Source: Herbaspirillum sp. LeCh32-8 (GTDB lineage: Bacteria > Pseudomonadota > Gammaproteobacteria > Burkholderiales > Burkholderiaceae_D). From it: a stretch of 64,000 nt of DNA. Positions 11,230 to 57,632 of the stretch are shown here, piece after piece (the first letter of the stretch is position 1; each line of letters begins with the position of its first letter). The stretch covers positions 1 to 64,000 of the forward strand of contig NZ_JAGIPZ010000003.1 in assembly GCF_017814915.1 (NCBI RefSeq). Direction: 5' to 3'. A program made the position numbers and the translations under genes. The notes beneath the pieces were generated by a model. That model was not told where the DNA came from. It saw only the letters and a list, made by a program, of their open reading frames with translations, and did no database searches.

Positions 11230-13467
11230 TCAGAAGTCGACCTGAGCCGACAGCACGAAGGTACGACCCGAAGCGGTGCCGACGTAACCGTTCTGCATCA
11301 CCCAGTAGTTCTTGTCGAACAGGTTCTCGATGTTGGCGCGGTAGGTCACGACCTGGCCGGCGGTCCTGGTGATGTAGCGCGCGCCGATGTCCACGCGAGT
11401 CCAGCCCGGCACCTTCATCGTATTTGCGCCGCTGTACCACATGGAGCCGGTGTGGGCGATGCGGGAGTTCAGCGCCAGGCCGGTCAGCCACGGTGCATCC
11501 CAGTCCACGCCGGCGTTGACGTTGTACTTGGGCACGGCGCCGATTTCCTTGCCGTCATTGGTGCCGTTAGTGGTATGCGACTGCTTGGTGTCGAAGAAGG
11601 TGCTGCTGGCGTTGAAGCGCAAGCCGCGTTGCAGTTCGCCGTAGGCAGCCAGCTCCAGGCCGCGCACGCGGTTGCGCCCGTCCTGGGTGGTATAGGTGAT
11701 ACCGTCGCGAACCGTCGAGCTGGTATTGGCCTGGTCGATCTGGAACACGGCCGCCGTGGTGGTCATGCGGCCCCAGTCGACCTTCACGCCGCTTTCATAT
11801 TGCTTGGAGCGGGCCGGCGGGAACTGCTTGGGACCGTTGCCGTCGGTGGCCGAGATGCTGGGGCCGGCGGTCAACGCGGCGGTGTAGCTGGCGTACAGCG
11901 AGACGCGATCCATCGGCTTGACCACCACACCCGCGACCGGCGAAATGCCGGTCTGGTTGGCGCTGGCGGAGAAGCCCGTCAGGTCATTGGTATAGATCTG
12001 CTGACGACGCAAGCCGGCGATCAGACGCAGGCGATCATCCAGCATCGACATGGAGTCGGTCACCGCCAGGCTGGTCAGGCGGGTCTGGGATTGCGGCGTC
12101 ATCTGGCCGCGCGTGACGGGATTGGCCGGCAGCGCAACCGGGTTGTACAGGTTCGAGCTCACGCCGGTGCTGACCGGCGGCGAGTAGAAGTAATCGGTCT
12201 GCTGATCGAGCATGTTGCCGCCCACGATCAGGGTGTGCTGGATGCCGCCGGTATTGAAGCGCGCACGCAGGCCGACGTCGGCCGAGGTCGAGGTGACGCG
12301 CTGGTCGTAGTAGGTTTCGGTCAGCGCGCTGGTATCGCCGCGGGTATTGAGGATGCTGGCGCCAGGCCAGGTCTGGTACGACTGCGCCACGTGGTAACCG
12401 ACCGCGCCATAGGCGGTGAGGTTGTTGTTGATGTCGAACTCCAGGCGCGTCGCCACGGCCTTGTCATCCGATTGCAGCGTGGTGCCCGGATACAGGTTGG
12501 TATTGCCATCGGGCGCGTCCGGCATCACCGCGCTGCTGATGCTGAACTGCGGACGGAAGTTGCGGGTGTCTTCGTGCTGGGTATAGGCGTCCAGGCTCCA
12601 GCGCACGCGGCTGCCGTTGTAATCGAGCGCGACCGAACCCATGGATTGCTGCTGATTGCTGCCCGACAGGCCGGTGTTGCCGTCGGCGCCCAGCGCATTG
12701 ACGCGGATGCCCCACTCCTTGTTTTCGCCGAAGCGGCGGCCGATGTCAGCCTTCAGGCCGAACTGCGAATTGGACAGGTAAGTGGCCGTGATGCTGGAGT
12801 TCGGATCTTCGTTGGCGCGCTTGGGCACCAGGTTGACTGCGCCGCCGATGCCGCCGGCCGGGCCCATGCCATACATCAGGGTACCCGGGCCCTTGAGCAC
12901 TTCGATGCGCTCGACCATCGAGATCGGCATGCGGGTCAGCGGCACCAGGCCGTACAGGCCGTTAAAGGACACATCGTTGGCCGACATGGTGAAGCCGCGG
13001 ATCTGGTAGCTGTCGCCGAAACCGCCGTTGCCGTTGGTGTTGCGCACCGAAGCGTCGTTGGCGATCACGTCGCCGATGGCGCGCGCCTGCACGTCTTCGA
13101 TGCCCTGCGAGGTGTAGTTGGTGGTGCTGAACGGGGTGTCCATCACGCTGGCCGTACCCAGCACGCCAAGGCTGCCGCCGCGGGCGACCAGGCCGCCGGC
13201 GTAGGGTGCCGTGGGGTCAGCGCTTTCGGTGACGGTGACGGTGGGCAGCACGGCGTTGCTGTTGCTGCCGCTGTTGGTGCTCGTGGTGGTGGTGGTCGTC
13301 GTCGACGTGGGAGTGGCGGCGTCGGTGGTGGTCGACGCGGTCTGCGCGTAGGCGGCTGGCACGGCCAGCATCGGCGCCATCAGCACCAGATGGCGCGCGG
13401 CGGATGCCACGGCCTTCAGTTGGAAAACGGAATTGCGTTGGCGCTTCGACGCCTGGACCTGCCCCAT
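11230..13467 (-). CDS. TonB-dependent siderophore receptor
   Basis: A 745-residue outer-membrane receptor. The leader ends near AYA at about 41. A long Thr/Ser-rich spacer (about 44-70) and a TonB-box-like PTVTVT near 75-80 follow. The plug carries the family hallmarks VNDVSFNGLYG, RIEVLKGPGTLMYGMGPAGGIGGAVNLVPKRA. The barrel ends in ANIENLFDKNYWVMQ and a terminal Phe (AQVDF). It imports a ferric siderophore using TonB/ExbBD energy; the ligand cannot be told from sequence. A second receptor gene lies upstream on the same strand but 222 bp away, with a separate palindrome in the leader (13497-13515). No biosynthesis genes are nearby, so xenosiderophore use is plausible. Confidence 0.93.
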   Translation of the reverse strand: MGQVQASKRQRNSVFQLKAVASAARHLVLMAPMLAVPAAYAQTASTTTDAATPTSTTTTTTTSTNSGSNSNAVLPTVTVTESADPTAPYAGGLVARGGSLGVLGTASVMDTPFSTTNYTSQGIEDVQARAIGDVIANDASVRNTNGNGGFGDSYQIRGFTMSANDVSFNGLYGLVPLTRMPISMVERIEVLKGPGTLMYGMGPAGGIGGAVNLVPKRANEDPNSSITATYLSNSQFGLKADIGRRFGENKEWGIRVNALGADGNTGLSGSNQQQSMGSVALDYNGSRVRWSLDAYTQHEDTRNFRPQFSISSAVMPDAPDGNTNLYPGTTLQSDDKAVATRLEFDINNNLTAYGAVGYHVAQSYQTWPGASILNTRGDTSALTETYYDQRVTSTSADVGLRARFNTGGIQHTLIVGGNMLDQQTDYFYSPPVSTGVSSNLYNPVALPANPVTRGQMTPQSQTRLTSLAVTDSMSMLDDRLRLIAGLRRQQIYTNDLTGFSASANQTGISPVAGVVVKPMDRVSLYASYTAALTAGPSISATDGNGPKQFPPARSKQYESGVKVDWGRMTTTAAVFQIDQANTSSTVRDGITYTTQDGRNRVRGLELAAYGELQRGLRFNASSTFFDTKQSHTTNGTNDGKEIGAVPKYNVNAGVDWDAPWLTGLALNSRIAHTGSMWYSGANTMKVPGWTRVDIGARYITRTAGQVVTYRANIENLFDKNYWVMQNGYVGTASGRTFVLSAQVDF

Positions 13468-13689: not shown

Positions 13690-15813
13690 TTACATGTCGA
13701 TCTTCACCCGCGCCACCACCGTGCGCTCGGTGCCGGGGATGACGTACAGGTTGCCCCACGATCCCGTGTAGTAGTTGCGGTTGAACAGGTTGTGCACGTC
13801 CAGCGAGACGCGCACGTTCTTGCTGGCCTGCCAGTAGCTGAGCAACTTGACCGTGGTATAGGCCGGCAGCGTATAGGTGTCGGCGGTGTTGCCCGAGCGG
13901 TTGCCGACATAGGTGACGCCGCCGCCAACGCCGTAGCGGTCGCCGTTGGACAGCGCGTCCTCGCGGATGGCCAGCAGGCCGGCGCTGTAGGCCGGAATGT
14001 TGGCCAGGCGCGTGCCGGCGGCGTAGGTCTTGTCCTTGGTCACGCGCGCGTTGTCCCAGGAGAAGTTGCCGGAGACGCGCCAGTGGGTGTCCAGCTGGCC
14101 GAACACATCGGCCTCGAAACCGGTGCTCCTGACCTCGCCGGCGGCCACCGAGAAGCCGGCCACGTCGCTGGCGGTCAGCACGTTGGTCTTGGTGATGTCG
14201 TAGACGGCGAAGTTGGCGCCCAGCTTTTCATCCCGCGATTGCAGCTTCACACCGGCCTCGTAGGCGGTCGAGCGTTGCGGGTCGAAAGCGCGGCCGTTGA
14301 TGTCGACGCCGCTGTTGCCACGGAAGGACCTGCCGGCGGTGATGTAGTAGGAACTCCAGTCATTGGGCAAATAGGTCACGCCCGCGCGCGGGGAGATCGC
14401 GCTTTGCTGCTGCGAGGTATTGCTGACCGAGGGCGCGCGGGTCTGCACGCTCTGGTTGTACTGATCCCAGCGCACGCCGCCCAGCACCTTCCATTGCGGC
14501 GACAGGCTGATCTGGTCCTGCACGAACAGCGCCTTCACGCGCTGGCGTTCGTCGGAGCTTGAGGTGCGGTTGGTGACCGGCAGCAGCGCCGTGCCGTAGA
14601 CCGGGTTGTAGATGTCGATGGGCTCGTTGGCCGAGCGCAGGATCTCGGTGTTCATCCACAGCTGCGAGGCCTCGGCGCCGAACAGCACGTCGTGGCCGAT
14701 GCTGCCGGTCTTGAATTTGCCTTCCAGCTCGGCCTGCAGCGAGGTATCGCGCGAGGGCAGCTGGCGCCAGGTGCGGGTGCGGTTGAGCGTGCGGTTGTCG
14801 GCGGCCAGCGGATTGCTCAGCGCCGCCTCGGTGTAGTAACCGTCGAAGCTGCTTTCCTTATAGCTGGCGCCAAACTTGGCGCGCCAGTTTTCCGAGAAGT
14901 GATGTTCCAGCGTCAGTTGATGGGTGTCGCTATTCAACTGCATGTTGCCGTCCGACGGCTCGCTCAGCACGCGGTCGCGCGGCAGCGTGCCCAGCACGCC
15001 GCGCACGTTGATGATGCCGCGGTCCAGCGGCGTGGATGAGCGCAGGATCTCGGCTTCATAGTTCAGCACCGTGTCGCGGTTGATGACCCAGGTGACGGCC
15101 GGCGCCACCAGCTGGCGGCGATTGCTGAGCATGCTGTTGCGAGTGTCGCCTTCTTCGGTCATGACGTTGAGGCGATAGGCGACGTTCTGGCTCAAGGGGC
15201 CGGTGCTGTCCAGCGTGGCGCGCTTCAGGCCGCCGCTGCCGGCGCTCAGCTCGGCCACGTTCTTCTGGGTGAACTGCGGCTTCTTGGTGACGATGTTGAT
15301 GGTGCCGCCCGGCTCGCTGCTGCCGTAGATGGCGGAGGCAGGGCCCTTCAGGAATTCGATGCGCTCCACGGTGGCGGTGTCGCGGCGCGGGTTGTAGCCG
15401 CGCGAGCCGGGGAAGCCGTTAATCAGGAAGCCCATGTCGGTGCTGCTGAAGCCGCGGATGCCGAAGTTGTCCCAGGTGCCGCCGAAGTCGTTGAGCTTGG
15501 TGATGCCGCTCACGTATTCCACCGTATCGGCCAGGCGCAGCGCGCCAACGTCTTCGATCTGCTGGCTGGTCATCACCCGCACCGACTGCGGCACTTCCAT
15601 CAGCGGCGTCTCGGTCCGGGTGGCGCCGCTGCTGCTGGAGGCCTTGTAGGATTGTTGCTCGCCGGCGGAGACCACGCTGATCTCCGGCAGGGCATTGGCG
15701 GAGGCGTCGGCCGGCGCGCTTTGCGCGTGAGCCATGTTCATCGAGAAGTTGATGGAGATGAGGCCGGCCGCCAGCAGGTGGCGACGCAGGATGCTGCACG
15801 TTCGTGTTTGCAT
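13690..15813 (-). CDS. TonB-dependent siderophore receptor (Fur-controlled)
   Basis: 707 residues: leader to about AHA-30, a TonB-box-like PEISVVSA near 43-50, and a plug with MEVPQSVRVMTSQQIEDVGALRLADTVEYVSGI and VERIEFLKGPASAIYGSSEPGGTINIVTKKP. A 22-strand-type barrel ends LDVHNLFNRNYYTGSWGN...VARVKIDM. This is the FhuA/FhuE/FoxA-like architecture of hydroxamate-type ferric siderophore receptors; the actual ligand is unknown. A strong Fur-like inverted repeat lies 39-70 bp upstream. The plug and C-terminus closely resemble the receptor at 50659, which by contrast sits behind a cobalamin riboswitch, so the two are paralogues under different metal signals. Confidence 0.93.
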   Translation of the reverse strand: MQTRTCSILRRHLLAAGLISINFSMNMAHAQSAPADASANALPEISVVSAGEQQSYKASSSSGATRTETPLMEVPQSVRVMTSQQIEDVGALRLADTVEYVSGITKLNDFGGTWDNFGIRGFSSTDMGFLINGFPGSRGYNPRRDTATVERIEFLKGPASAIYGSSEPGGTINIVTKKPQFTQKNVAELSAGSGGLKRATLDSTGPLSQNVAYRLNVMTEEGDTRNSMLSNRRQLVAPAVTWVINRDTVLNYEAEILRSSTPLDRGIINVRGVLGTLPRDRVLSEPSDGNMQLNSDTHQLTLEHHFSENWRAKFGASYKESSFDGYYTEAALSNPLAADNRTLNRTRTWRQLPSRDTSLQAELEGKFKTGSIGHDVLFGAEASQLWMNTEILRSANEPIDIYNPVYGTALLPVTNRTSSSDERQRVKALFVQDQISLSPQWKVLGGVRWDQYNQSVQTRAPSVSNTSQQQSAISPRAGVTYLPNDWSSYYITAGRSFRGNSGVDINGRAFDPQRSTAYEAGVKLQSRDEKLGANFAVYDITKTNVLTASDVAGFSVAAGEVRSTGFEADVFGQLDTHWRVSGNFSWDNARVTKDKTYAAGTRLANIPAYSAGLLAIREDALSNGDRYGVGGGVTYVGNRSGNTADTYTLPAYTTVKLLSYWQASKNVRVSLDVHNLFNRNYYTGSWGNLYVIPGTERTVVARVKIDM

Positions 15814-41004: not shown

Positions 41005-41235
41005 GCGCGCGCCGACCGCGCCTTCATTGACGCAACAAAGTTGCAATTAATGCGCCCGGCATGACTTCCAAATAATGATTTTCTGGGCGCTTCGGTTAGA
41101 CTAGCTCCGAATCAGGGGAAATCCGTCCGGATCCCCGCATTGCCTGATCACCCCAACAACAAGAACAGCCCCCGTTCGTCATTGGTTTGACGTTCGTTGG
41201 AATCATATTTTCGATTCCGGAATAGGAAGTTAACT

Positions 41236-43251
41236 TTGAATCGCGCCGTTCCTTCAGAACCGCCCTCCCCGTCGGCACATCCGTCCGGCCTGGATCAGCT
41301 CATCCTGGCCGACCAGTTGACCGCCGTGCGCCACACCGTGCGACTGTCCATGCCGGTCAACGCAGTGTTGGGGATCATCTCGGCGGCGCTCGCCTGGAGC
41401 GCCGGCAAGCTCGATATCGCGCTGATCTGGCTGGCCTGCTCCGGCGCGGTCAACCTGTCGCGTCTCCTGGCCTGCCGCCTGCCGGTGGCGCGCGTGGCGG
41501 CGCTGCCGCTGCTGGCCCTCTTGCCGGGCAGCAAGGGCAAGAGCGCTGTGGAGCTGAACCTGCGCGCGCACTGGATCCTGGCCCTGATGTCCGGCCTGGT
41601 GTGGGCCGGTGTGCCCTTCCTGTGCGAGGGCTACACCACGCCCGAGACCCTGTTCTACCTGACCTGCGTATGCGGCATCACGGCCGGCGCCGTGACCCAC
41701 GGCTTCGCCTTCGCCCGCATCCCGATCTGCTTCATCACCCCGCCGCTGCTGTCCATCATCGTCTGCCTGGCCTGGCAGGGCGACACCGTGCGCGTGGCGC
41801 TTTCGCTGGCAGTGCTGCTGTATCTGGCGGCGCTGATCCGCGGCGCGCGCGTGAGCGAGAAGCTGGTGTCCGACGCCAGCGCGTCCAAAAACCGCGCCAC
41901 CTCGGCCACCCAGGCGCTGGAGATCGCCCACCGCGAACTGGGCGTGTTCGCCGAGAAGATGCAGTACCAGGCCGAGCACGACCTGCTGACCGGGCTGCTC
42001 AGCCGCGCCGGCTTCATGCAGAAGACGCAGGCGGTGGCAACGCCGCGCGCGCAGTCGCTGTGCATGATGTTCCTCGACCTGGACGGCTTCAAGGTCATCA
42101 ACGACGCCTACGGCCACGACGCCGGCGACCAGATGCTGATCGAAGTGGCGCGCCGCCTGGAGAGCACGCTGGCCGGCGCATTGACGGATGAATTCACGCT
42201 GGCGCGCCTGGGCGGGGACGAGTTCGCGATCCTGTATCAGGCAACGCAGCGCACCGACCCGGCTGCGATCGCGGCCCGACTGATCGCGGCGATCCGGGCG
42301 CCCTATCCGCGCCTGCCGAACCGCCATATCGGCCTGAGCATCGGCATCCACCTGTCGGACGCCGACGACATCAACGAGATGCTGATCTGCTCCGACGCGG
42401 CGATGTACGAATCCAAGCGCCGCGCACGCAACCAGTACAGCTTCTTCACCCCGGTGCTCAATGCGCGCCTGCAGATGAAGCGCGACGTCGAGCGCGACCT
42501 GGCCGCAGCGCTCAAGAACGGCGAGCTGGAGGTGTGGTTCCAGCCCATCATCCAGCGCAACGGTACCGCGCTGGAAGGCTTCGAGGCGCTGCTGCGCTGG
42601 CGTCATCACAAGCACGGGTGGATCGCACCGCCCGACCTGATCGAGATCGCGGCGCTGGCCGGCCTGTCGGAAGAATTGCTGCACTTCATCGTAGGCGAGG
42701 TGACGGAGATGATCCGCTTCCTGCACGCCGCCGGTCGCAGCGAACTGCGCGTGGCGATGAACATCTCCCCGCGCGAACTGGAACGCATCCTGATCGACGA
42801 CCTGGTGGGCAGCAAGTTGCAGGAGTTCGGCCTGCCGGCGGCGATGCTGGAAATCGAGATCACCGAAGAAGCCGCGCTCGACCTGCAGGCCGCGCGCCAG
42901 ACCCTGGCGGCCTTGTCGGAACTGGGCGTGAGCATCGCCATCGACGACTTCGGCGTGGGTTATTCCTCACTGGGCGTGCTGCGCCAGATGCGCGTGTCGC
43001 GCGTGAAGATCGACCGCAGCTTCGTCACCGGCTTGAACGACAGCGCGGAGAACCAGGCGCTGGTGCAGGCGGTGCTGCAGCTGGCGGAGTCGTTCAACTT
43101 CCTGGTGGTGGCCGAAGGCGTGGAAAGCGTGGAAGACCTGCGCATGCTGCAAGACATGAACTGCCCGGCGATGCAGGGCTACTACTTCTCGCCGCCCATG
43201 CCCGTGGCGCAGGCCCGGCAATGGATAGGCGGCGCGGCTGTGATGGCCTGA
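41236..43251 (+). CDS. Membrane GGDEF-EAL protein (c-di-GMP turnover)
   Basis: The TTG at 41236 is preferred because AGGAAG lies six bases upstream; this gives 671 residues. About 30-215 holds several hydrophobic helices of a membrane sensor region. The GGDEF domain has the intact motif (ARLGGDEFAILY) but no upstream RxxD inhibitory site. The EAL domain keeps its catalytic signature: EALLRW, NISPREL, EIEITEE, IDDFGVGYSSL, KIDRSFV, AEGVE and QGYYFSPPM. Both synthesis and breakdown of c-di-GMP are possible from sequence alone. It is monocistronic, after a strong terminator. Confidence 0.93.
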   Translation: MNRAVPSEPPSPSAHPSGLDQLILADQLTAVRHTVRLSMPVNAVLGIISAALAWSAGKLDIALIWLACSGAVNLSRLLACRLPVARVAALPLLALLPGSKGKSAVELNLRAHWILALMSGLVWAGVPFLCEGYTTPETLFYLTCVCGITAGAVTHGFAFARIPICFITPPLLSIIVCLAWQGDTVRVALSLAVLLYLAALIRGARVSEKLVSDASASKNRATSATQALEIAHRELGVFAEKMQYQAEHDLLTGLLSRAGFMQKTQAVATPRAQSLCMMFLDLDGFKVINDAYGHDAGDQMLIEVARRLESTLAGALTDEFTLARLGGDEFAILYQATQRTDPAAIAARLIAAIRAPYPRLPNRHIGLSIGIHLSDADDINEMLICSDAAMYESKRRARNQYSFFTPVLNARLQMKRDVERDLAAALKNGELEVWFQPIIQRNGTALEGFEALLRWRHHKHGWIAPPDLIEIAALAGLSEELLHFIVGEVTEMIRFLHAAGRSELRVAMNISPRELERILIDDLVGSKLQEFGLPAAMLEIEITEEAALDLQAARQTLAALSELGVSIAIDDFGVGYSSLGVLRQMRVSRVKIDRSFVTGLNDSAENQALVQAVLQLAESFNFLVVAEGVESVEDLRMLQDMNCPAMQGYYFSPPMPVAQARQWIGGAAVMA

Positions 43252-50048: not shown

Positions 50049-50177
50049 TGCATTGACCCCGAAAATGCCGCCGCGTCGCCGCGACCGAAGGGCGATATTT
50101 TAATCGCCGCCACACAGCGCTGCGGCAATTTGCCGCACGGCTGCCCATCCCGGTGATACGCCTGTATCATGCTCGCG

Positions 50178-50390
50178 TTTGGTGCGCGCCGCCGGTCTTC
50201 TGCCGGCGGCCGTTAAACGGGAAACACGCGCCGGCGCCGCCGCCGGCCAACGTGTGCTGCCCCCGCAACGGTAAGACAGGCGCCGCATGTCGATATGCGG
50301 CAGGTTGCCTCCTCGGTCCACTGTGCCATCGGCATGGGAAGGCGTGGCAGCCGGCTCTGTCAGCCCGGATACCGGCCCGAACGATGCCAG
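50178..50390 (+). promoter_or_regulatory. Cobalamin riboswitch
   Basis: The leader shows the ordered elements of a B12 aptamer: a GC-rich P2-like hairpin (GCCGCCGG/CCGGCGGC), TTAAACGGGAAAC, the core GTGCTGCCCCCGCAACGGTAA and, about 130 nt on, the B12 box CAGCCCGGATACCGGCCC (50361-50378). This indicates that adenosylcobalamin or a related corrinoid switches off the downstream operon. The ends of the aptamer are approximate. Confidence 0.93.
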
Positions 50391-50438
50391 CGGACGGCCG
50401 GGGTGTGCCGGCCCGCCTGGCAAAGCCGTTGCCTTTTT
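50386..50438 (+). other. Candidate expression platform of the riboswitch
   Basis: GCCAG and CTGGC (50386-50390, 50417-50421) enclose GGCCGG/CCGGCC (50396-50401, 50408-50413); a T5 run occurs at 50434-50438. The spacing is loose for an intrinsic terminator, so it may instead be an antisequestor. The rest of the leader to 50658 shows nothing else. Confidence 0.4.
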
Positions 50439-50658
50439 CAGCGACATCATCGCATGCGTCCGACGCCGTGGTCGGAGCGCAGCCTGCGCACGTGCGTGCC
50501 ATGTGCAGGCTGCATGCGTATTTGATATTCGTATTTGATAAATGCAACACAGTTGCAATACAATGCACAACTCGCGCCGGCGCCAGTCGCCTCGCTTACG
50601 CACAACAACATGCGCCGCACACGCTTTGCGGCATGCATCAACAGGGGAAGCATCGTCC

Positions 50659-52782
50659 ATGAAGAATCCGGCCATCCGGCTCGCCGTCCTGAGCCTGTTC
50701 GCCCTCGCGCCCGCCAGTCAGGCGCGTGCCGCTGAGACCGACACGCCCGCCACCGGCGTCACCGATGGCGGCTTGGCGCCCATCGTCATCACCGACGATG
50801 CCGAGCGCCGTCCTTACCGGGCCGCCCGCAGCAGCAGCGCCACCCGCACCGATACGCCGCTGCAGGAACTGCCGCAGGCGGTGCAGGTGGTGCCGCGCCA
50901 GTTGATGGACGATCTCGGCGCCACGCGCCTGGACGACGTGCTGCTTTACGTGAGCGGCGTGGCGCGCCAGAACAATTTCGGCGGTCTGTGGGACAACTAC
51001 TCCATCCGTGGCTTCTCCGGCAACGAGAACGGCGGCATGAATATCCTGTGGAACGGCTTTGCCTCCAACCGTGGCTATGCGCCCCCGCGCGACACTGCCA
51101 ATGTGGAGAGCGTGGACTTCCTGAAAGGCCCGGCGGCCGCGTTGTACGGCAACAGCGAGCCGGGCGGCACCATCAACGTGGTCACCAAGAAGCCCCAGTT
51201 CAAGGCGGCCAACGCGCTGGACCTGACGATCGGCACCAACAACTTCTACCGCAGCGCGCTGGACTCCACCGGCGCGCTCTCCAGCGAGGTCGCCTACCGC
51301 CTCAACGCGGCAATGGAGACGCGCGGCAGCGTACGCGACAACATGCGCAGCACGCGCGAGTTCCTGGCGCCGGCGCTGACCTGGGCGCTGGGCGACCACA
51401 CCATCCTCAACTACGAGGCCGAGTTCCTGCGCCAGAAGGCGCCGCTGGACCGTGGCGTGGTCGCGGTCAACGGCAATCCCGGCGCGTTGCCGGCTTCGCG
51501 CTTCCTGGGCGAACCCGGCGACGGCGACGTCAAGATGGAAAACCAGAACCACCTGCTGACGCTGGAGCACCGTCTCAACGAGGACTGGCATCTGCGCACC
51601 GGGGTATTCCACAAACAGGGCACGCTGGACGGCTACTCCACCGAAGCCTCGTCGCTGCGCGCCGACAACAGCACCCTCTGGCGCCAGCGCCGCTACCGCG
51701 ACTACAGCTGGCACGACACCTCGCTGCAGGCCGAGCTCGGCGGCAAGTTCGCCACCGGCGAGCTGCGCCACGAAGTGCTGGCCGGGGTGGAAGCCGACTG
51801 GATGACGCTGGACCAGCGCATGCTGCGCATCAATCCATCCGCCGGCGCGCCGTATGCAATCGACATCAACAACCCGGTGTACGGCCAGGCGCAGCCGACC
51901 CCGCTGCCCAACACCGACACTGCCGAGCACCAGACCAGCACCGGCCTCTACCTGCAAGACCAGCTGAGCCTGGGACGCTGGCGGCTGCTGGGCGGCGTGC
52001 GCGCCGACAACTTCCGCTCCACGCTCGACAATCGCCGCACCGCCGTCAGCACGCGCCAGGACAAGGGCGCCGTCTCGCCCCGCCTGGGCGTGACCTACCT
52101 GTTCACCGATGCCCTCTCGGCCTACGCCAGCGCCAGCAAATCGTTCCGCCCCAACAGCGGCAGCGACGTCAACGGCAACGCCTTCAGTCCAGAGACCTCG
52201 CGCGCCGGTGAACTGGGCCTGAAATGGCAGAGCGAAGACCGACGCAGCGGCGCCACCCTGGCCGTGTTCGACATCGCCAAGCAGAACGTGCTGACCGGCG
52301 ACCCGGCCAATGCCGGCTTCTCCATCGCCGCCGGCGAAGTGCGCAGCCGCGGCGTGGAGCTGGACTACAGCGGCAAGCTGGGTCGCCACTGGCGCCTGAC
52401 CGGCAACTTCGCCTACACCGACGCCTACGTCAGCCGCGACAACACGCTGGCCATCGGCTCGCGCCTGGTCAACGTGCCGCGCGCCTCGGGCAGTGCGCTG
52501 GCAGTGTATGAAGACGCCGATGCGCGCGACGGCGTGTGGGGCGTGGGCGGCGGCGCCAGTTATGTGGGTGAACGCACCGGCGACCAGGCCGGCAGCTTCA
52601 AGCTGCCCGCCTATGTGACGGCGCGCGCGCTTGCCTACTGGCAGGTGACGCCGCAGGTGAAGCTGTCGCTAGACATGAACAACCTGTTCAACAAGCGCTA
52701 CTACGCCAGCTCTTACAACAACCTCTGGATCATGCCCGGCGACGAACGCAGCGCGACCTTGAGCATGAACCTGAAATTCTGA
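50659..52782 (+). CDS. TonB-dependent receptor under cobalamin riboswitch control
   Basis: 707 residues from the ATG at 50659 (AGGGGA ten bases upstream). Leader ends near ARA-24; a TonB-box-like PIVITD lies at 41-46. The plug shows LPQAVQVVPRQLMDDLGATRLDDVLLYVSGVARQ and VESVDFLKGPAAALYGNSEPGGTINVVTKKP. The barrel ends in LDMNNLFNKRYYASSYNN...LSMNLKF with a terminal Phe. It has the siderophore-receptor (FhuE/FoxA-like) architecture and length, not the shorter BtuB one, yet is controlled by a B12 riboswitch. It heads an operon with a NikABCDE/Dpp-type ABC importer. Import of a cobalt or nickel chelate, or a corrinoid, is the best reading. Confidence 0.93.
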   Translation: MKNPAIRLAVLSLFALAPASQARAAETDTPATGVTDGGLAPIVITDDAERRPYRAARSSSATRTDTPLQELPQAVQVVPRQLMDDLGATRLDDVLLYVSGVARQNNFGGLWDNYSIRGFSGNENGGMNILWNGFASNRGYAPPRDTANVESVDFLKGPAAALYGNSEPGGTINVVTKKPQFKAANALDLTIGTNNFYRSALDSTGALSSEVAYRLNAAMETRGSVRDNMRSTREFLAPALTWALGDHTILNYEAEFLRQKAPLDRGVVAVNGNPGALPASRFLGEPGDGDVKMENQNHLLTLEHRLNEDWHLRTGVFHKQGTLDGYSTEASSLRADNSTLWRQRRYRDYSWHDTSLQAELGGKFATGELRHEVLAGVEADWMTLDQRMLRINPSAGAPYAIDINNPVYGQAQPTPLPNTDTAEHQTSTGLYLQDQLSLGRWRLLGGVRADNFRSTLDNRRTAVSTRQDKGAVSPRLGVTYLFTDALSAYASASKSFRPNSGSDVNGNAFSPETSRAGELGLKWQSEDRRSGATLAVFDIAKQNVLTGDPANAGFSIAAGEVRSRGVELDYSGKLGRHWRLTGNFAYTDAYVSRDNTLAIGSRLVNVPRASGSALAVYEDADARDGVWGVGGGASYVGERTGDQAGSFKLPAYVTARALAYWQVTPQVKLSLDMNNLFNKRYYASSYNNLWIMPGDERSATLSMNLKF

Positions 52783-52790
52783 CGCGCCGC

Positions 52791-54383
52791 ATGCCAGCTC
52801 CACAGATAAGGCGACGCCGCCTGCTCGCCACGGCGGCCATCACCGCCGTCGGCAGCGCCATGCTGCCGCACCGCGCGACCTTTGCGCACGGCGACGACAA
52901 GACCCATTCGCATGCCATCGACGCCGCCGGCGCCGACGTACTGACGGTAGTCGGCCCGTGGGAGATGACCGGACTCGATCCCTCCCGCTCCGGCTACATG
53001 TTCGCGCGCATGGAAGTGGTGGAGACGCTGCTGGAAGTGGACGACGGCGGCAATCTGCTGCCCGGACTGGCCGCCGACTGGCACGCCCGCGCCGATGGCC
53101 TGCAATGGCGCTTCACGCTGCGCGCCGGGCGCCGCTATCACGACGGCACGCAGCTCACTCCGGCCAGCGTGCTGGCCTGCCTGCAACGCGCGCAGGCGCG
53201 CCCTGGGGTACTCGCGCTGGCGCGCATCAGCGCCATGCGCGTGGAGGGCGCACAGCTGGTGGTCGAGCTGGAGCAACCGTTCACGGCCCTGCCCTATCTT
53301 TTCACGCATTACAGCACGCAGATCCTGGCGCCGACCTCGTTCGACGCCGCCGGCAACGTCATTCGCATCATCGGCAGCGGTCCGTACCGCATTGCCTCGC
53401 TGTCGCTGCCGCAGCAGTTCGACATCGAACGTTTCGCGCCCCATGACGATGGCAAGCCGGCGGCGCGCCGCATCGCCCGTGCGCGCTACATCAGCGTGGC
53501 GCGCGCCGAGACGCGCACGCTGCTGATGCAAAGCGGCCAGGCCGACCTCGCCTTCTCGCTCGACCCGCCCAGCATCCGCGCCTTGCAGCACAATCCGCGC
53601 GCACAGCTGGTGTCGGCGATGCTGCCGCGCACGACCTTCATCAAGCTCAACGCCGGCCATCCCTTCCTGCGCGACGTGCGCGTGCGGCGCGCCATCGCCC
53701 TGTGCGTGGAGCGCCAAGGCATTGCGCGCGCATTGCTGCGCGATCCGGAACTGGGCGCAACACAGCTGTTCCCGCCGTCCCTGCGACGCTGGCATGACGC
53801 CGCGCTGGCGCCGCTGCGCACCGACCCGGCTGCCGCGCGGGCCTTGCTGGATGAGGCCGGCTGGCGCATTGCTGCCGACGGCATCCGACGCAACCAGGAC
53901 GGCGAACGCCTGACGCTGAATCTGACTACCTTCGTGGATCGCCCGGAGCTGCCGCTGATCGCCGCCGCCCTGCAGGAGGAGATGCGCCAGATCGGCATCG
54001 CCGTGCGTGTGGTGATCGGCAACTCCAGCGACATCCCCGCCGGCCACCGCAGCGGCACGCTGCAGATGGGCCTGGCGGCGCGCAACTTCGGCAACCTGCC
54101 TGATCCGGTCGCCACGCTGCTGCAGGATTTCGGCGCGCAAGGCGGCGACTGGGGCGCGATGGGGTGGAGCCATCCCGATCTCGCCGCAGCGCTGGCGCGC
54201 CTGTCCTCAGGCGCCGGCGGACAGACTGAACGCACGCGCATCGCCGCGGTGCTGCAGGATGAATTGCCGGTCATCCCGGTGGTCTGGTACCGCCAGACCT
54301 GCGCGGTCAACCGACGCGTGGCCAACGCCAGCATCGACCCCTTCGAACGCAGCTACAGGATCTCGCAACTGCAATGGACTTGA
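52791..54383 (+). CDS. ABC transporter substrate-binding protein, NikA/DppA (SBP_bac_5) family, His-rich N-terminus
   Basis: 530 residues. A leader with four consecutive Arg (RRRRLLATAAITAVGSAML) has likely cleavage after TFA-32, so that the mature protein would start with HGDDKTHSH, three His in nine residues. The family-5 fold follows: LDPSRSGYMFARMEVVETLLEVDDGGNLLPGLAADWHARADGLQWRFTLRAGRRYHDGTQLTPASV and IRIIGSGPYRI. It binds peptides, nickel chelates or similar ligands; here the riboswitch and His-rich start favour a metal complex. It follows the TonB receptor by 8 bp and overlaps the next gene. Confidence 0.92.
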   Translation: MPAPQIRRRRLLATAAITAVGSAMLPHRATFAHGDDKTHSHAIDAAGADVLTVVGPWEMTGLDPSRSGYMFARMEVVETLLEVDDGGNLLPGLAADWHARADGLQWRFTLRAGRRYHDGTQLTPASVLACLQRAQARPGVLALARISAMRVEGAQLVVELEQPFTALPYLFTHYSTQILAPTSFDAAGNVIRIIGSGPYRIASLSLPQQFDIERFAPHDDGKPAARRIARARYISVARAETRTLLMQSGQADLAFSLDPPSIRALQHNPRAQLVSAMLPRTTFIKLNAGHPFLRDVRVRRAIALCVERQGIARALLRDPELGATQLFPPSLRRWHDAALAPLRTDPAAARALLDEAGWRIAADGIRRNQDGERLTLNLTTFVDRPELPLIAAALQEEMRQIGIAVRVVIGNSSDIPAGHRSGTLQMGLAARNFGNLPDPVATLLQDFGAQGGDWGAMGWSHPDLAAALARLSSGAGGQTERTRIAAVLQDELPVIPVVWYRQTCAVNRRVANASIDPFERSYRISQLQWT

Positions 54384-55348
54384 TGCCTCTCCTTTCCCCG
54401 GCCGGCTGGCGCAGGCTCGCGCCGGCGCTGCTGCGCCGCCTGCTGCAAGCGACGATGGTGGCGCTGCTGGTCGGCACGCTGTGCTTCTTCATGACGCGCA
54501 TGCTGCCCGGCGACATGGCCTATCGCATCGCCGCCGGCCGCTACGGCTACGACATGGTCACCAGCGCGGCGGCAGATGCGGTGCGGCATGAGCTCGGACT
54601 GGACCGCCCGTTGCTGGCGGCACTGGCCGAGTGGTGGTCGCGCCTGTTACAGCTGAACCTTGGCCAGTCGCAGGTCACCGCGCAACCGGTGTTGACGGAA
54701 CTCGCGCACCAGCTCGGCCCGACGCTGCGCCTGTCGGCGCTGGCCATGGTGCTGTCGTTGCTGCTGGGGCCGCCGCTGGGCGTGCTGGCCGGGCTGCGCC
54801 CCGGCGGCGTGCTCGATCGCGCCACGCTGGCGCTGTCGGTCGGACTGCGCGCCCTGCCCGCCTTCCTGCTCGGCCTGGTGCTGGTGCTGCTGTTCTCGGT
54901 GCAACTGGGGGCGCTGCCGGCGGCCGGCCATGGCGACCACGGCAGCATCCTGCTGCCGGCGCTGACGTTGGCGCTGGGCTTGGCCGCCGTATCGTGCCGG
55001 GTGGCGCGCGACGCGATGGTGAGCGTGCGCTCATCCGCCTACTTCGGGTTCGCCCTCACCAAGGGCTTGAGCGAGCACCAGGCGCTGGCGCGGCATGGCT
55101 TGCGCAACGTCGCCGCGCCGGTGGTCGCCTACCTCGGCGTGCAGCTGGTGATGCTGGTCGAAGGCGTGGTGCTGGTAGAAACCATCTTCGCCTGGCCCGG
55201 CATCGGACACGCGCTGGTGCATGCCATCTTCGGGCGCGATGTACCCATGATCCAGGGAACGGCGCTGGTGCTGGGCCTGATGTTCGTCCTCTTCAATGCG
55301 CTGGTCGACCTGGCCTGCGCACTCATCGATCCGCGCCGCCGACCATGA
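54374..55348 (+). CDS. ABC transporter permease, NikB/DppB type
   Basis: 324 residues (an ATG at 54383 in a TGATG overlap is the alternative start). Features: N-terminal helix with FFMTRMLPGDMAYRIAAGRYG, the conserved block for the first permease of Dpp/Nik systems, and six membrane helices. The EAA-loop region reads VSCRVARDAMVSVRSSAYFGFALTKGLSEHQALARHGLRNVAAPVV, and the end is VVLVETIFAWPGIGHALVHAIFGRDVPMIQGTALVLG. It overlaps the binding-protein gene by 10 bp and the second permease by 4 bp. Confidence 0.93.
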   Translation: MDLMPLLSPAGWRRLAPALLRRLLQATMVALLVGTLCFFMTRMLPGDMAYRIAAGRYGYDMVTSAAADAVRHELGLDRPLLAALAEWWSRLLQLNLGQSQVTAQPVLTELAHQLGPTLRLSALAMVLSLLLGPPLGVLAGLRPGGVLDRATLALSVGLRALPAFLLGLVLVLLFSVQLGALPAAGHGDHGSILLPALTLALGLAAVSCRVARDAMVSVRSSAYFGFALTKGLSEHQALARHGLRNVAAPVVAYLGVQLVMLVEGVVLVETIFAWPGIGHALVHAIFGRDVPMIQGTALVLGLMFVLFNALVDLACALIDPRRRP

Positions 55349-56166
55349 GAACCGAATCCTTTCCCCCGGCTCCCGCCGTCCCCATGCGCGCGGGCCAACG
55401 CATCGCCGTCGCCCTGCTGCTGGCCATCGCCGTCTTCGCCCTGCTGGCGCCCTGGCTGAGCGGCGGCGACCCGGCGCGCCAGCAACTGGAGCGCTTCCTC
55501 GAAGGCCCCAGCCTGACGCATCCGCTCGGCCTGGATCACCTCGGCCGCGATATGCTGGCGCGCCTGGCCCACGGCGCCCGCCTGTCGCTGTCGCTGGCCT
55601 TGCTCAGCGTGATGAGCGCGGCCATTCCGGGCACCGCGCTGGGCCTGCTGGCGGCCTGGCATGGCGGCTGGCTCGAGCGCGCCTTGTCGGCCATCGCCGA
55701 CGCCGTGCTGGCGCTGCCCGGCCTGCTGCTGGTGTTGCTGCTGGCGGCATTCGCGCCCGGCGGCTTCTGGCCGCTGTACGTGGGCATCGCGCTGGCTCTA
55801 TGGGTGGAATATTTCCGCGTGGCGCGCGCGGCCGCACGCATCCTGCTGGCCGGGCCGCAGGTGGAGGCCTCGCGCATGCTGGGCTTCGCTGCCGGCTACA
55901 TCGTGCGCCGCCAACTGCTGCCCGAATTGCTGCCGCGCCTGTTCACGCTGATGCGCTTCGGCTTCGCCGGCGCGGTGCTGGCGATGTCGGCGCTGGGCTT
56001 TGTCGGCGTTGGGCTGCAACCGCCCACGCCCGAGCTGGGGGTGATGATGATCGAGCTGCTGCCCTATTACAGCGAGGCGCCGTGGCTGATCGGCTCGCCG
56101 GTGCTGCTGCTGTTCCTGACGCTGCTGGGCTTGCTGCTGCTCTCGCGCGAACAGGAGCCGGCATGA
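55345..56166 (+). CDS. ABC transporter permease, NikC/DppC type
   Basis: 273 residues from the ATG at 55345 (ATGA overlap). THPLGLDHLGRDMLARLAHGARLSLSLALLSV is the hallmark of the second permease. The EAA region reads EYFRVARAAARILLAGPQVEASRMLGFAAGYIVRRQLLPELLPRL, followed by LGFVGVGLQPPTPELGVMMIELLPYYSEAPWL. About six membrane helices. It forms the membrane channel with the preceding permease. Confidence 0.93.
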   Translation: MRTESFPPAPAVPMRAGQRIAVALLLAIAVFALLAPWLSGGDPARQQLERFLEGPSLTHPLGLDHLGRDMLARLAHGARLSLSLALLSVMSAAIPGTALGLLAAWHGGWLERALSAIADAVLALPGLLLVLLLAAFAPGGFWPLYVGIALALWVEYFRVARAAARILLAGPQVEASRMLGFAAGYIVRRQLLPELLPRLFTLMRFGFAGAVLAMSALGFVGVGLQPPTPELGVMMIELLPYYSEAPWLIGSPVLLLFLTLLGLLLLSREQEPA

Positions 56167-57632
56167 TGAGCAAGAAACACAAGGACATCGCGCCAACGCC
56201 CGTACTGCGCGTGCAGGACCTCGCGGTGCTGCATCGTCAGGACGCGCTGGTGCAGGGCATTTCCTTCCAGATCGCGGCCGGCGGCGTGTTCACGTTGCTG
56301 GGTGAAAGCGGCTCCGGCAAGTCGTTGCTGGCACAGGCGGTGATGGGGAAATTGCCGGCGCAGCTGCGCTGTGAGGGCAGCATCGAGCTCGCCGGCCGCC
56401 GCAGCGACGCCGCCGACCAGCACGCACGCCATGCGGCATGGGGGCGCCAGATGGCGCTGCTGCCGCAAGAACCCTGGCTGGCGCTGGATCCCACCATGCA
56501 GGTATGGCGCCAGGTAGCGCTGACCTATGAGCTGGTCAGTCGCGCCGCGCAAGACAGCCAGAACGACAGCTTGCGCACCGCACGCAACGGTGCCCGCCAG
56601 GCTGCGCTGGCCGATCTTGATCGGCTGGGGCTGGCGCAAGCGGCGCACAAATATCCGTTCATGATCTCCGGCGGCATGGCGCAGCGCGTCGCTTTCCTGG
56701 CGACCCATGCGACAGGAGCGCCGTTGATGATCATCGACGAGCCCACCAAGGGCCTGGACCATGAACGACGCAACGACATGCTGGCATTGTTGCAGGCCGC
56801 GCAGGCCGAGGGCATCGGCCTGCTGTGCATTACCCACGACGTCTGGCTGGCGCACGCGCTGGGCGGCGAGGTCGGTGTGCTGCTCGACGGCAATCTGGTG
56901 GAGCATGGGCCGGCCCGGCAGGTGCTGGAACGGCCGCAACACGCCTACACGCAGCGGCTGCTGGCGGCCGATCCGCAGCGGTGGCCGCATGCGACGCCCT
57001 CCGCGTCGCATGATGTCGACCACGCCACACCGGTGGTGGAGATCACCGGCCTGGCCAAGTCCTTCGGCGAGCAGCACCTCTTCAGCGGCATCGATGCGCG
57101 TATTGCGCCCGGTGAGGTGGTCGCCGTCAACGGCCCCAGCGGCGCCGGCAAAACCAGCTTCGGCAATATCGTGCTGGGCCTGCTGCAGCCGGACGCCGGC
57201 AGCGTGCGGCGCGCGCCCGGCTTGCCGGCCACGGCGTTCCAGAAGCTCTATCAGGATCCGGTGGCGGCCTTCGTCCCCGGACTGACGCTGAAGCAAGCGC
57301 TGCGCGACCTGATCCGCCTGCACCGACTGGACTGGCAGGAGCTGGAGTATCTGCTGCAACGCATGCGCCTGCCGCTGGAACTGCTGGAACGCAAACCCGG
57401 CCAGGTGTCGGGCGGAGAGCTGCAGCGCATCGCGCTGGCGCGCGTGCTGCTCCTGAAGCCGGCCCTGATCTTCGCCGACGAGCCCACCTCTCGGCTCGAT
57501 CCGCTCACCCAGCAGGAGGTGGTGCAGTTGATGCTGGAGCAGTGCCGCCGACATCGCAGCGCATTGCTGCTGGTGACCCACGATATCTATCTGGCGCGCA
57601 ACGTGGCTGATCGCAGCATCCGGTTGGGCTGA
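56163..57632 (+). CDS. Double ATP-binding protein (NikD-NikE fusion type)
   Basis: 489 residues with two complete ABC ATPase domains in one chain. Domain 1 (about 15-255) has Walker A GESGSGKS, signature ISGGMAQR, Walker B LMIIDEPT and switch His in CITHDVW. Domain 2 (about 280-489) has Walker A GPSGAGKTS, signature VSGGELQR, Walker B LIFADEPT and LVTHDIYL. In most Nik/Dpp importers these are two proteins. The second domain is shorter than usual and ends without the C-terminal oligopeptide extension. The start overlaps the permease stop (ATGA). Last gene of the operon, followed by a strong terminator. Confidence 0.93.
   Translation: MMSKKHKDIAPTPVLRVQDLAVLHRQDALVQGISFQIAAGGVFTLLGESGSGKSLLAQAVMGKLPAQLRCEGSIELAGRRSDAADQHARHAAWGRQMALLPQEPWLALDPTMQVWRQVALTYELVSRAAQDSQNDSLRTARNGARQAALADLDRLGLAQAAHKYPFMISGGMAQRVAFLATHATGAPLMIIDEPTKGLDHERRNDMLALLQAAQAEGIGLLCITHDVWLAHALGGEVGVLLDGNLVEHGPARQVLERPQHAYTQRLLAADPQRWPHATPSASHDVDHATPVVEITGLAKSFGEQHLFSGIDARIAPGEVVAVNGPSGAGKTSFGNIVLGLLQPDAGSVRRAPGLPATAFQKLYQDPVAAFVPGLTLKQALRDLIRLHRLDWQELEYLLQRMRLPLELLERKPGQVSGGELQRIALARVLLLKPALIFADEPTSRLDPLTQQEVVQLMLEQCRRHRSALLLVTHDIYLARNVADRSIRLG

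Follow-up and report, generated by a model that had tools for sequence, protein, structure and literature searches.

In Pseudomonas aeruginosa starved of zinc, cobalt-pyochelin is reported to enter through a Zur-controlled receptor and ATP-binding cassette (ABC) importer encoded by PA2911-PA2914 (PMC11481552; here and below, articles are cited for the excerpts consulted). The staphylopine and pseudopaline systems (CntABCDF; ZrmA/CntO) handle metal-opine complexes with a family-5 binding protein and a Nik/Opp-type importer (Cnt), and their ZrmA is a Zur-controlled TonB receptor. Cobalamin riboswitches stand upstream of CbtJKL, CbtAB, BtuBCDF and a TonB-dependent receptor (TBDR) with NiCoT and CobW, systems whose inner-membrane parts are BtuF-like, secondary or of the energy-coupling factor (ECF) type (PMC7689651). 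NikABCDE is reported to lie behind a B12 riboswitch in Clostridium tetani and Desulfitobacterium hafniense (PMC2667541), and in Novosphingobium a TonB receptor lies behind an adenosylcobalamin (AdoCbl) riboswitch together with NiCoT and CobW (PMC7689651). According to the same 2021 review, a cobalt-specific outer-membrane receptor had not been confirmed. Here we analyze a locus of Herbaspirillum sp. LeCh32-8 located in a stretch of 64,000 nucleotides (contig NZ_JAGIPZ010000003.1, positions 1 to 64,000; hereafter the window), where a cobalamin riboswitch is followed by five genes coding for a siderophore-type receptor, TBDR1, and a Nik/Dpp-type ABC importer.

Like PA2911-PA2914, this locus unites a TonB receptor with a full ABC importer, presumably for a metal-metallophore, under Zur control, which is predicted here, and cobalt may likewise make good a shortage of zinc; unlike it, PA2911-PA2914 has an ABC part described as resembling siderophore or B12 importers and not of the Nik/Dpp type, and the excerpts of PMC11481552 mention no riboswitch. 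The family-5 binding protein and the Nik/Opp-type importer recall the Cnt systems, and the control of ZrmA parallels that predicted for TBDR1, but CntD and CntF are separate ATPases whereas a single double chain is found here, and no synthesis gene was recognized beside the operon. Subunit kinds and order match those of NikABCDE, with NikD and NikE models matching the two halves of the ATPase, yet the ATPases are fused, the NikA residue His416 is replaced, a TonB receptor belongs to the operon, Zur control is predicted and no Nik cut-off is reached. From the cobalt and corrinoid systems headed by B12 riboswitches, the locus differs in its neighboring Zur-type promoter and in having acquired its riboswitch as a lineage-specific addition. 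In the open-access literature, as far as the excerpts consulted go, we found neither this operon nor any other that combines Zur with a cobalamin riboswitch. We favor, with somewhat better than even confidence, the interpretation that the five genes constitute a Zur-repressed metal-chelate importer for which the upstream riboswitch most likely provides a second, B12-repressed entry.

Palindrome and riboswitch as controls of the operon

An earlier note on this DNA, made from the sequence alone, had the riboswitch driving the operon, a claim that comparison with related genomes does not bear out. TBDR1 was detected with more than 1000 bits in 18 of 34 Herbaspirillum genomes, and the binding-protein gene directly follows it in 15 of those 18. 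A perfect palindrome (TGCAAC-N3-GTTGCA) lies 99-124 bp before the receptor match in all 15, whereas a riboswitch on the same strand precedes TBDR1 exclusively in the window genome (1/15); Herbaspirillum sp. YR522 and sp. alder98 carry a divergent riboswitch next to TBDR1, and the other 12 have none nearby. Because the palindrome is present in 15/15 genomes and the same-strand riboswitch in 1/15, the conserved signal appears to be zinc starvation and not B12. When the 700 bases before TBDR1 were aligned with those of seven relatives, a single block stood out as strongly conserved, some 100 bases 5′ of the start codon. In none of the seven relatives do these bases contain a riboswitch. The family was sampled with 145 genomes, and with 60 for the extended pattern described below. 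No riboswitch is found at the operon of 14 family relatives, the one RF00174 match (L029) preceding another receptor gene on the opposite strand. A role of the riboswitch as conserved driver was rejected on these grounds, since it is absent from the operon in the 14 family relatives and, two divergent copies apart, elsewhere in the genus.

The palindrome is found in a predicted sigma70-like promoter located between the riboswitch and TBDR1. The window genome (5.03 Mb, 100% complete) contains two perfect and five one-mismatch copies, as opposed to none for the reversed control. Two tandem palindromes, one of them perfect, precede the genes for the zinc metallochaperone ZigA (703.7 bits, cut-off 600) and folE2 (290.7, cut-off 215). 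Another copy, mismatched in a flanking base only, has on one side the gene for ZrgA (PF10986; 147.9 bits, cut-off 27.4) and on the other a zinc-type ABC operon, the nearest models of which are AztA (210.9 bits, cut-off 220) and AztB (232.7, cut-off 280). At this site zrgA, an ABC ATPase gene, a MacB-like permease gene (read from translation) and a DUF3299 gene stand in a row, which we take to be the make-up of PA4063-PA4066. Since zinc-starvation genes adjoin copies elsewhere, the palindrome is very probably a Zur operator, one that the operon promoter has in common with genes by which this genome responds to zinc starvation. NikR and Fur were considered as alternative regulators and dropped, the genes behind copies elsewhere being those of zinc starvation. 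Two Zur boxes precede cobW1-folE_IB2 in Cupriavidus metallidurans (PMC10882993); the excerpts consulted yielded no published Zur-box sequence of this bacterial group for comparison. An extended pattern that includes the −10 box has 14 sites in 8 of the 60 family genomes, against one site for its reversed control. Of these sites, 11 adjoin a ZnuC/ZnuB-, ZrgA-, ZigA- or TBDR1-like gene, other genera included; the window genome contributes two of the 11.

Several observations weigh against this interpretation. Three of the 14 extended-pattern sites lack a zinc gene, L190 having none and the overlapping sites L194 and L200 only a weak ABC-ATPase match, and no zinc gene was recognized alongside the one-mismatch sites at 41030 of the window, C11:367554 and C22:310710. 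In the three genomes where TBDR1 has no adjoining binding protein (L143, L145 and L146, in G148, G159 and G167), the palindrome is found at 165 in one, and no copy within three mismatches exists in the two others. Binding-protein identity is 70-76% at the 10 named Herbaspirillum loci. The other 25 of the 35 named loci, not labelled Herbaspirillum, retain the importer genes, 11 of them without a TBDR1-like receptor match in the stretch read, and have no palindrome with up to two mismatches near the receptor or binding-protein start.

The copy at 41030-41046 lies about 150 bases before a frame (41197-43251) that reads like a GGDEF/EAL protein, which could reflect chance or a zinc link.

Composition and cargo of the importer

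The earlier note had correctly recognized five packed genes, which code for a siderophore-type receptor, a binding protein of family 5, a pair of permeases and a double ATPase (Table 1). All are encoded on a single strand, with a gap of 8 bases between TBDR1 and the binding-protein gene and overlaps of 10, 4 and 4 bases at the later junctions. The ATG behind AGGGGAAG was picked as the start of TBDR1, the open frame of which starts further upstream. TBDR1 exceeds the cut-off of the TonB-siderophore receptor model TIGR01783 (381.6 bits, cut-off 223.5) and fails that of the TonB-B12 model TIGR01779, BtuB (68.4 bits, cut-off 599.7), which the genome's own BtuB-like receptor does not reach either (121.4 bits). 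Among solved structures it is closest to the enantio-pyochelin receptor and to one that entries label either FoxA or CntO, followed by FhuA. Domain matches were SBP_bac_5 in the binding protein, BPD_transp_1 in both permeases and two ABC_tran stretches in the ATPase. For the binding protein, the permeases and the double ATPase, Nik, Opp2 and Cnt models come closest (for the ATPase, among the best 25 of 188), with scores below the cut-offs of all listed models. Thus, the binding protein scores 145.3 and 179.7 bits with the NikA equivalogs TIGR02294 (cut-off 393) and NF045468 (cut-off 600) and 94.5 bits with the staphylopine-type CntA model NF047575 (cut-off 800), while NikB, NikC, NikD and NikE give 231.1, 161, 229.9 and 187.2 bits for cut-offs of 447, 358.45, 318.7 and 332.55, respectively. 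These scores, and a binding protein of family 5 and not of the BtuF type, agree with the former view that neither receptor nor importer is of the Btu type. A siderophore-type receptor with a complete ABC importer likewise fits the outer-to-inner membrane route proposed then, a route of the metallophore kind.

Table 1. Features of the riboswitch leader, the proximal promoter and the operon (window positions; aa, amino acids)
Feature	Position	Strand	Details
Cobalamin riboswitch aptamer (RF00174)	50163-50394	+	55.7 bits
−10-like TATCAT	50165-50170	+	TANNAT at same position in homologues
Post-aptamer hairpin GGCCGG-GGTGTG-CCGGCC	50396-50413	+	common to homologous leaders
Weak terminator-like hairpin, 5 bp, then TTTTT	50419-50438	+	3 such sites over both strands, against 0.6 expected
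sigma70-like promoter TTGATA-18-TACAAT	50535-50564	+	10/12 matches; 1 found, 0.2 expected
Predicted Zur operator ATGCAACACAGTTGCAA	50542-50558	+	inside promoter spacer, downstream of riboswitch
TBDR1, TonB-dependent receptor, siderophore type	50659-52782	+	707 aa
Family-5 periplasmic binding protein, NikA/CntA-like	52791-54383	+	530 aa
ABC permease 1, Opp2B/NikB-like	54374-55348	+	324 aa
ABC permease 2, Opp2C/NikC-like	55345-56166	+	273 aa
Double ATPase with fused NikD-like and NikE-like halves	56163-57632	+	489 aa

Uptake of a corrinoid or corrinoid precursor, which the presence of the riboswitch might suggest and which the earlier note had offered as an option, seems highly improbable given the preference of TBDR1 for the siderophore over the B12-receptor model, the family-5 binding protein and the conserved palindrome. 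In addition, B12-type uptake and cob genes are found behind the other two riboswitches of the genome, and no cob/cbi gene was recognized in the frames at about 45-62 kb around the operon, where three flanking proteins were profile-scanned.

The predicted structure of the binding protein (mean predicted local distance difference test, pLDDT, of 83.8) has the family-5 fold, and NikA-type proteins are its best matches both by sequence and with Foldseek, where NikA entries lead. Folds that bind peptides, glutathione or agropinic acid score about as well as NikA; because Z-scores tie across ligands, the fold was dropped as evidence for a nickel or a peptide cargo. Moreover, the position of His416, essential in NikA according to the title of entry 3qim, is an invariant Gly (window residue 451) in the profile of 34 relatives. 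The tie between folds and the lost His would suit an importer of peptides, opines or other organic compounds that do not serve as metal ligands, an explanation that we nevertheless judge unlikely in view of the predicted Zur control and the NikA-type top matches. After its signal peptide, the binding protein also bears a short His-containing stretch, which reads AHGDD..H.HA in a consensus built from 14 close relatives and is weaker in that of the 34 relatives. It speaks against a metallophore reading that no metallophore-making gene was recognized beside the operon. The opine dehydrogenase family PF10100 has no match in the genome, nor in any of 14 control genomes, which makes this search uninformative.

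If the operon is a Zur-repressed metal-chelate importer, the metal is probably zinc, or cobalt replacing zinc. The cobalt chelate put forward in the earlier note is a possible cargo by analogy with the Zur-controlled import of cobalt-pyochelin (PMC11481552), the conserved signal being nonetheless that of zinc starvation. C. metallidurans is reported to accumulate cobalt when starved of zinc (PMC11340326).

Two other loci of the window were noted. A TBDR1 paralogue (50% identity) is encoded at 13690-15813 on the minus strand, preceded by an AT-rich stretch that presumably resembles a Fur box and followed by a large frame (11230-13467, minus strand). A gene for a siderophore-interacting protein (PF04954; 47869-48780, minus strand) lies opposite a MarR-like frame, 1.4 kb upstream of the riboswitch.

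Integrity and kinship of the riboswitch

By covariance comparison the riboswitch is genuine as an aptamer, as the earlier note had claimed from a start at 50178, 15 bases too late. The RF00174 match spans positions 1-189 of the 189 of the model (gathering score 31.5, E 4e-11) and is the sole match above a gathering score in the 64-kb window. Aligned with eight homologues, the window riboswitch keeps 72 of the 77 consensus pairs, while two fall in gaps and three are newly broken. Compared with the majority of homologues, six pairs changed on one side and six on both, all 12 with pairing retained, and substitutions affect 21 of 152 paired and 22 of 84 unpaired columns. This pattern favors maintenance of the aptamer, with the reservation that the consensus structure was derived from the same alignment. 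In the post-aptamer hairpin, one pair changed on both sides yet still pairs and another is broken in the window. The terminator-like hairpin was not seen in homologous leaders and may be due to chance; as its stem has 5 bp and its folding energy is no better than that of shuffles, a terminator after the aptamer was not relied on.

Other features of the leader speak against a riboswitch acting on the operon. The three newly broken pairs exceed the number in any of the eight homologues (0-2), no good −35 box was found for a riboswitch promoter (best 3/6), and a hairpin close to the start codon, common to the homologues, is missing from the window leader in an alignment of ten leaders. Similarity to the homologous leaders stops at about 50424.

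The closest relatives of the riboswitch are 79-82% identical over about 250 nt, and weaker ones 73-78%. In 8/8 Herbaspirillum genomes read downstream, these homologues head a gene for another receptor, TBDR2, and a Peripla_BP_2 (FecB-like) gene; TBDR2 loci read further continue with a FecCD-type permease and an ATPase. Further homologous riboswitches occur in G151 and G154. In G142, another homologous riboswitch heads a third receptor, TBDR3. Judged by this kinship, the riboswitch is a homologue of those heading a different receptor system and is lineage-specific at this operon.

YR522 and alder98, two of the eight, have their TBDR2 operon divergent from the Zur operon. At these loci (L170, 10775-19617, and L169), the B12-riboswitch operon reads TBDR2, Peripla_BP_2, a permease frame and an ATPase, with a related receptor further downstream, and is a candidate importer of a corrinoid or a cobalt chelate, distinct from the BtuB locus. 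In the intergenic region of alder98, on the strand of TBDR1, we detected a stub that aligns with some 85 bases surrounding the window riboswitch's 5′ end (score 47, compared with at most 33 in 1000 shuffles), the core of which scores 44 with the window riboswitch and 26 with alder98's own TBDR2 riboswitch. Because this stub sits in the same place and matches the window riboswitch, a same-strand riboswitch was probably present in the common ancestor, decayed in alder98 and was retained in the window genome. YR522 shows no stub (score 24), which does not favor such an ancestry.

These observations raise the possibility that the riboswitch is a leftover of a B12-regulated TBDR2 system that once lay beside the Zur operon and was lost, derived from that system's own riboswitch or a sister copy, and that the operon answers to Zur alone. 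The window genome contains nothing closer to TBDR2 than a match of 28% identity and hence no TBDR2, its leader lacks the regulatory hairpin seen in the homologues, the same riboswitch is decaying in the related strain alder98, and the Zur-type promoter lies downstream of the riboswitch, all of which would be expected of a relic. The aptamer, however, has kept its pairs and accumulated pairing-preserving changes whereas the alder98 stub decayed, and the −10-like element is retained. We therefore regard a relic as a doubtful explanation, and an action of the riboswitch on the operon as a tentative one.

Zinc, cobalt and B12 loci and a possible double control

The window genome has three RF00174 matches in total. 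The second precedes genes for CbtB (67 bits, cut-off 64.4), CbtA (251, cut-off 182.9) and an unassigned small protein, in a locus that continues with CobN (1225.9 bits, cut-off 822.05) and a CbiE-type gene (360.8, cut-off 302). The third precedes the BtuB-like receptor gene followed by FecCD-permease and ATPase frames (read from translation), with a BtuF-like gene (201.2 bits, cut-off 234) on the opposite strand. With these two loci, the genome already provides for B12-type uptake and has a predicted cobalt transporter. In Herbaspirillum seropedicae, a single cobalamin riboswitch is reported, placed ahead of cbtBA in one article (PMC7011215) and of a gene for a cobalt transporter in another (PMC6337395).

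The model of the earlier note, a B12-repressed importer of cobalt or a cobalt-metallophore with the riboswitch as main control, draws on the position of the riboswitch beside the operon on the same strand, on Nik/Cnt-type relatives, and on the precedents of NikABCDE in C. tetani and D. hafniense (PMC2667541) and of the Novosphingobium receptor (PMC7689651). It is hard to reconcile with the 14 other Herbaspirillum genomes that have the operon and the palindrome and no same-strand riboswitch, nor does it explain why a CbtBA cobalt system already stands behind another riboswitch, and we consider it improbable.

Some receptors may have changed between regulons. In G142 (L022, 13073-16838), one palindrome lies between the TBDR1 operon and a divergent TBDR3 gene, beyond which, on the other strand, lies a gene for a nickel/cobalt permease of the NicO type (366.5 bits, cut-off 27.7), and the second TBDR3 copy of this genome (L091) lies behind the cobalamin riboswitch mentioned above. 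Receptors of the TBDR1 and TBDR3 kinds are thus found in Herbaspirillum under both Zur-type and riboswitch arrangements. The loci of G142 and of zrgA point to traffic between the zinc and the B12/cobalt regulons. In G056 (L093, 1443-5415), a cobalamin riboswitch precedes a siderophore-type receptor and one more gene, 7 kb from related importer genes located on the other strand.

According to the interpretation that we favor, a Zur-repressed importer with a second entry, Zur would leave the palindrome in the proximal promoter when zinc is short, allowing transcription of the operon. TBDR1 would carry the chelate across the outer membrane, and the binding protein would pass it to the two permeases, the double ATPase powering its entry into the cytoplasm. 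The riboswitch, with its own −10-like element, would constitute a second, B12-repressed entry through which the importer could also answer a need for B12 or cobalt. The sequence itself shows the genes, the aptamer, the palindrome with its zinc-gene neighbors and its conservation, and the kinship of the riboswitch; Zur binding, the cargo, the activity of the upstream promoter and the action of the riboswitch on this operon are inferred. We advance more cautiously the joint proposal that a single importer responds to two starvation signals, zinc through Zur at the proximal promoter and B12/cobalt through the riboswitch behind a distal promoter, that zinc and B12 regulons exchange receptors, and that the importer is a broad route for metal chelates serving both the replacement of zinc by cobalt and the supply of cobalt for B12.

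This locus cautions against assuming that a riboswitch adjoining an operon is the principal control, a conserved operator being located here 150 bases further on. Should both controls prove functional, signals from zinc and from cobalamin would converge on one importer of chelated metal, and the operon would offer a genetic handle on the uptake of chelated cobalt in Gram-negative bacteria.

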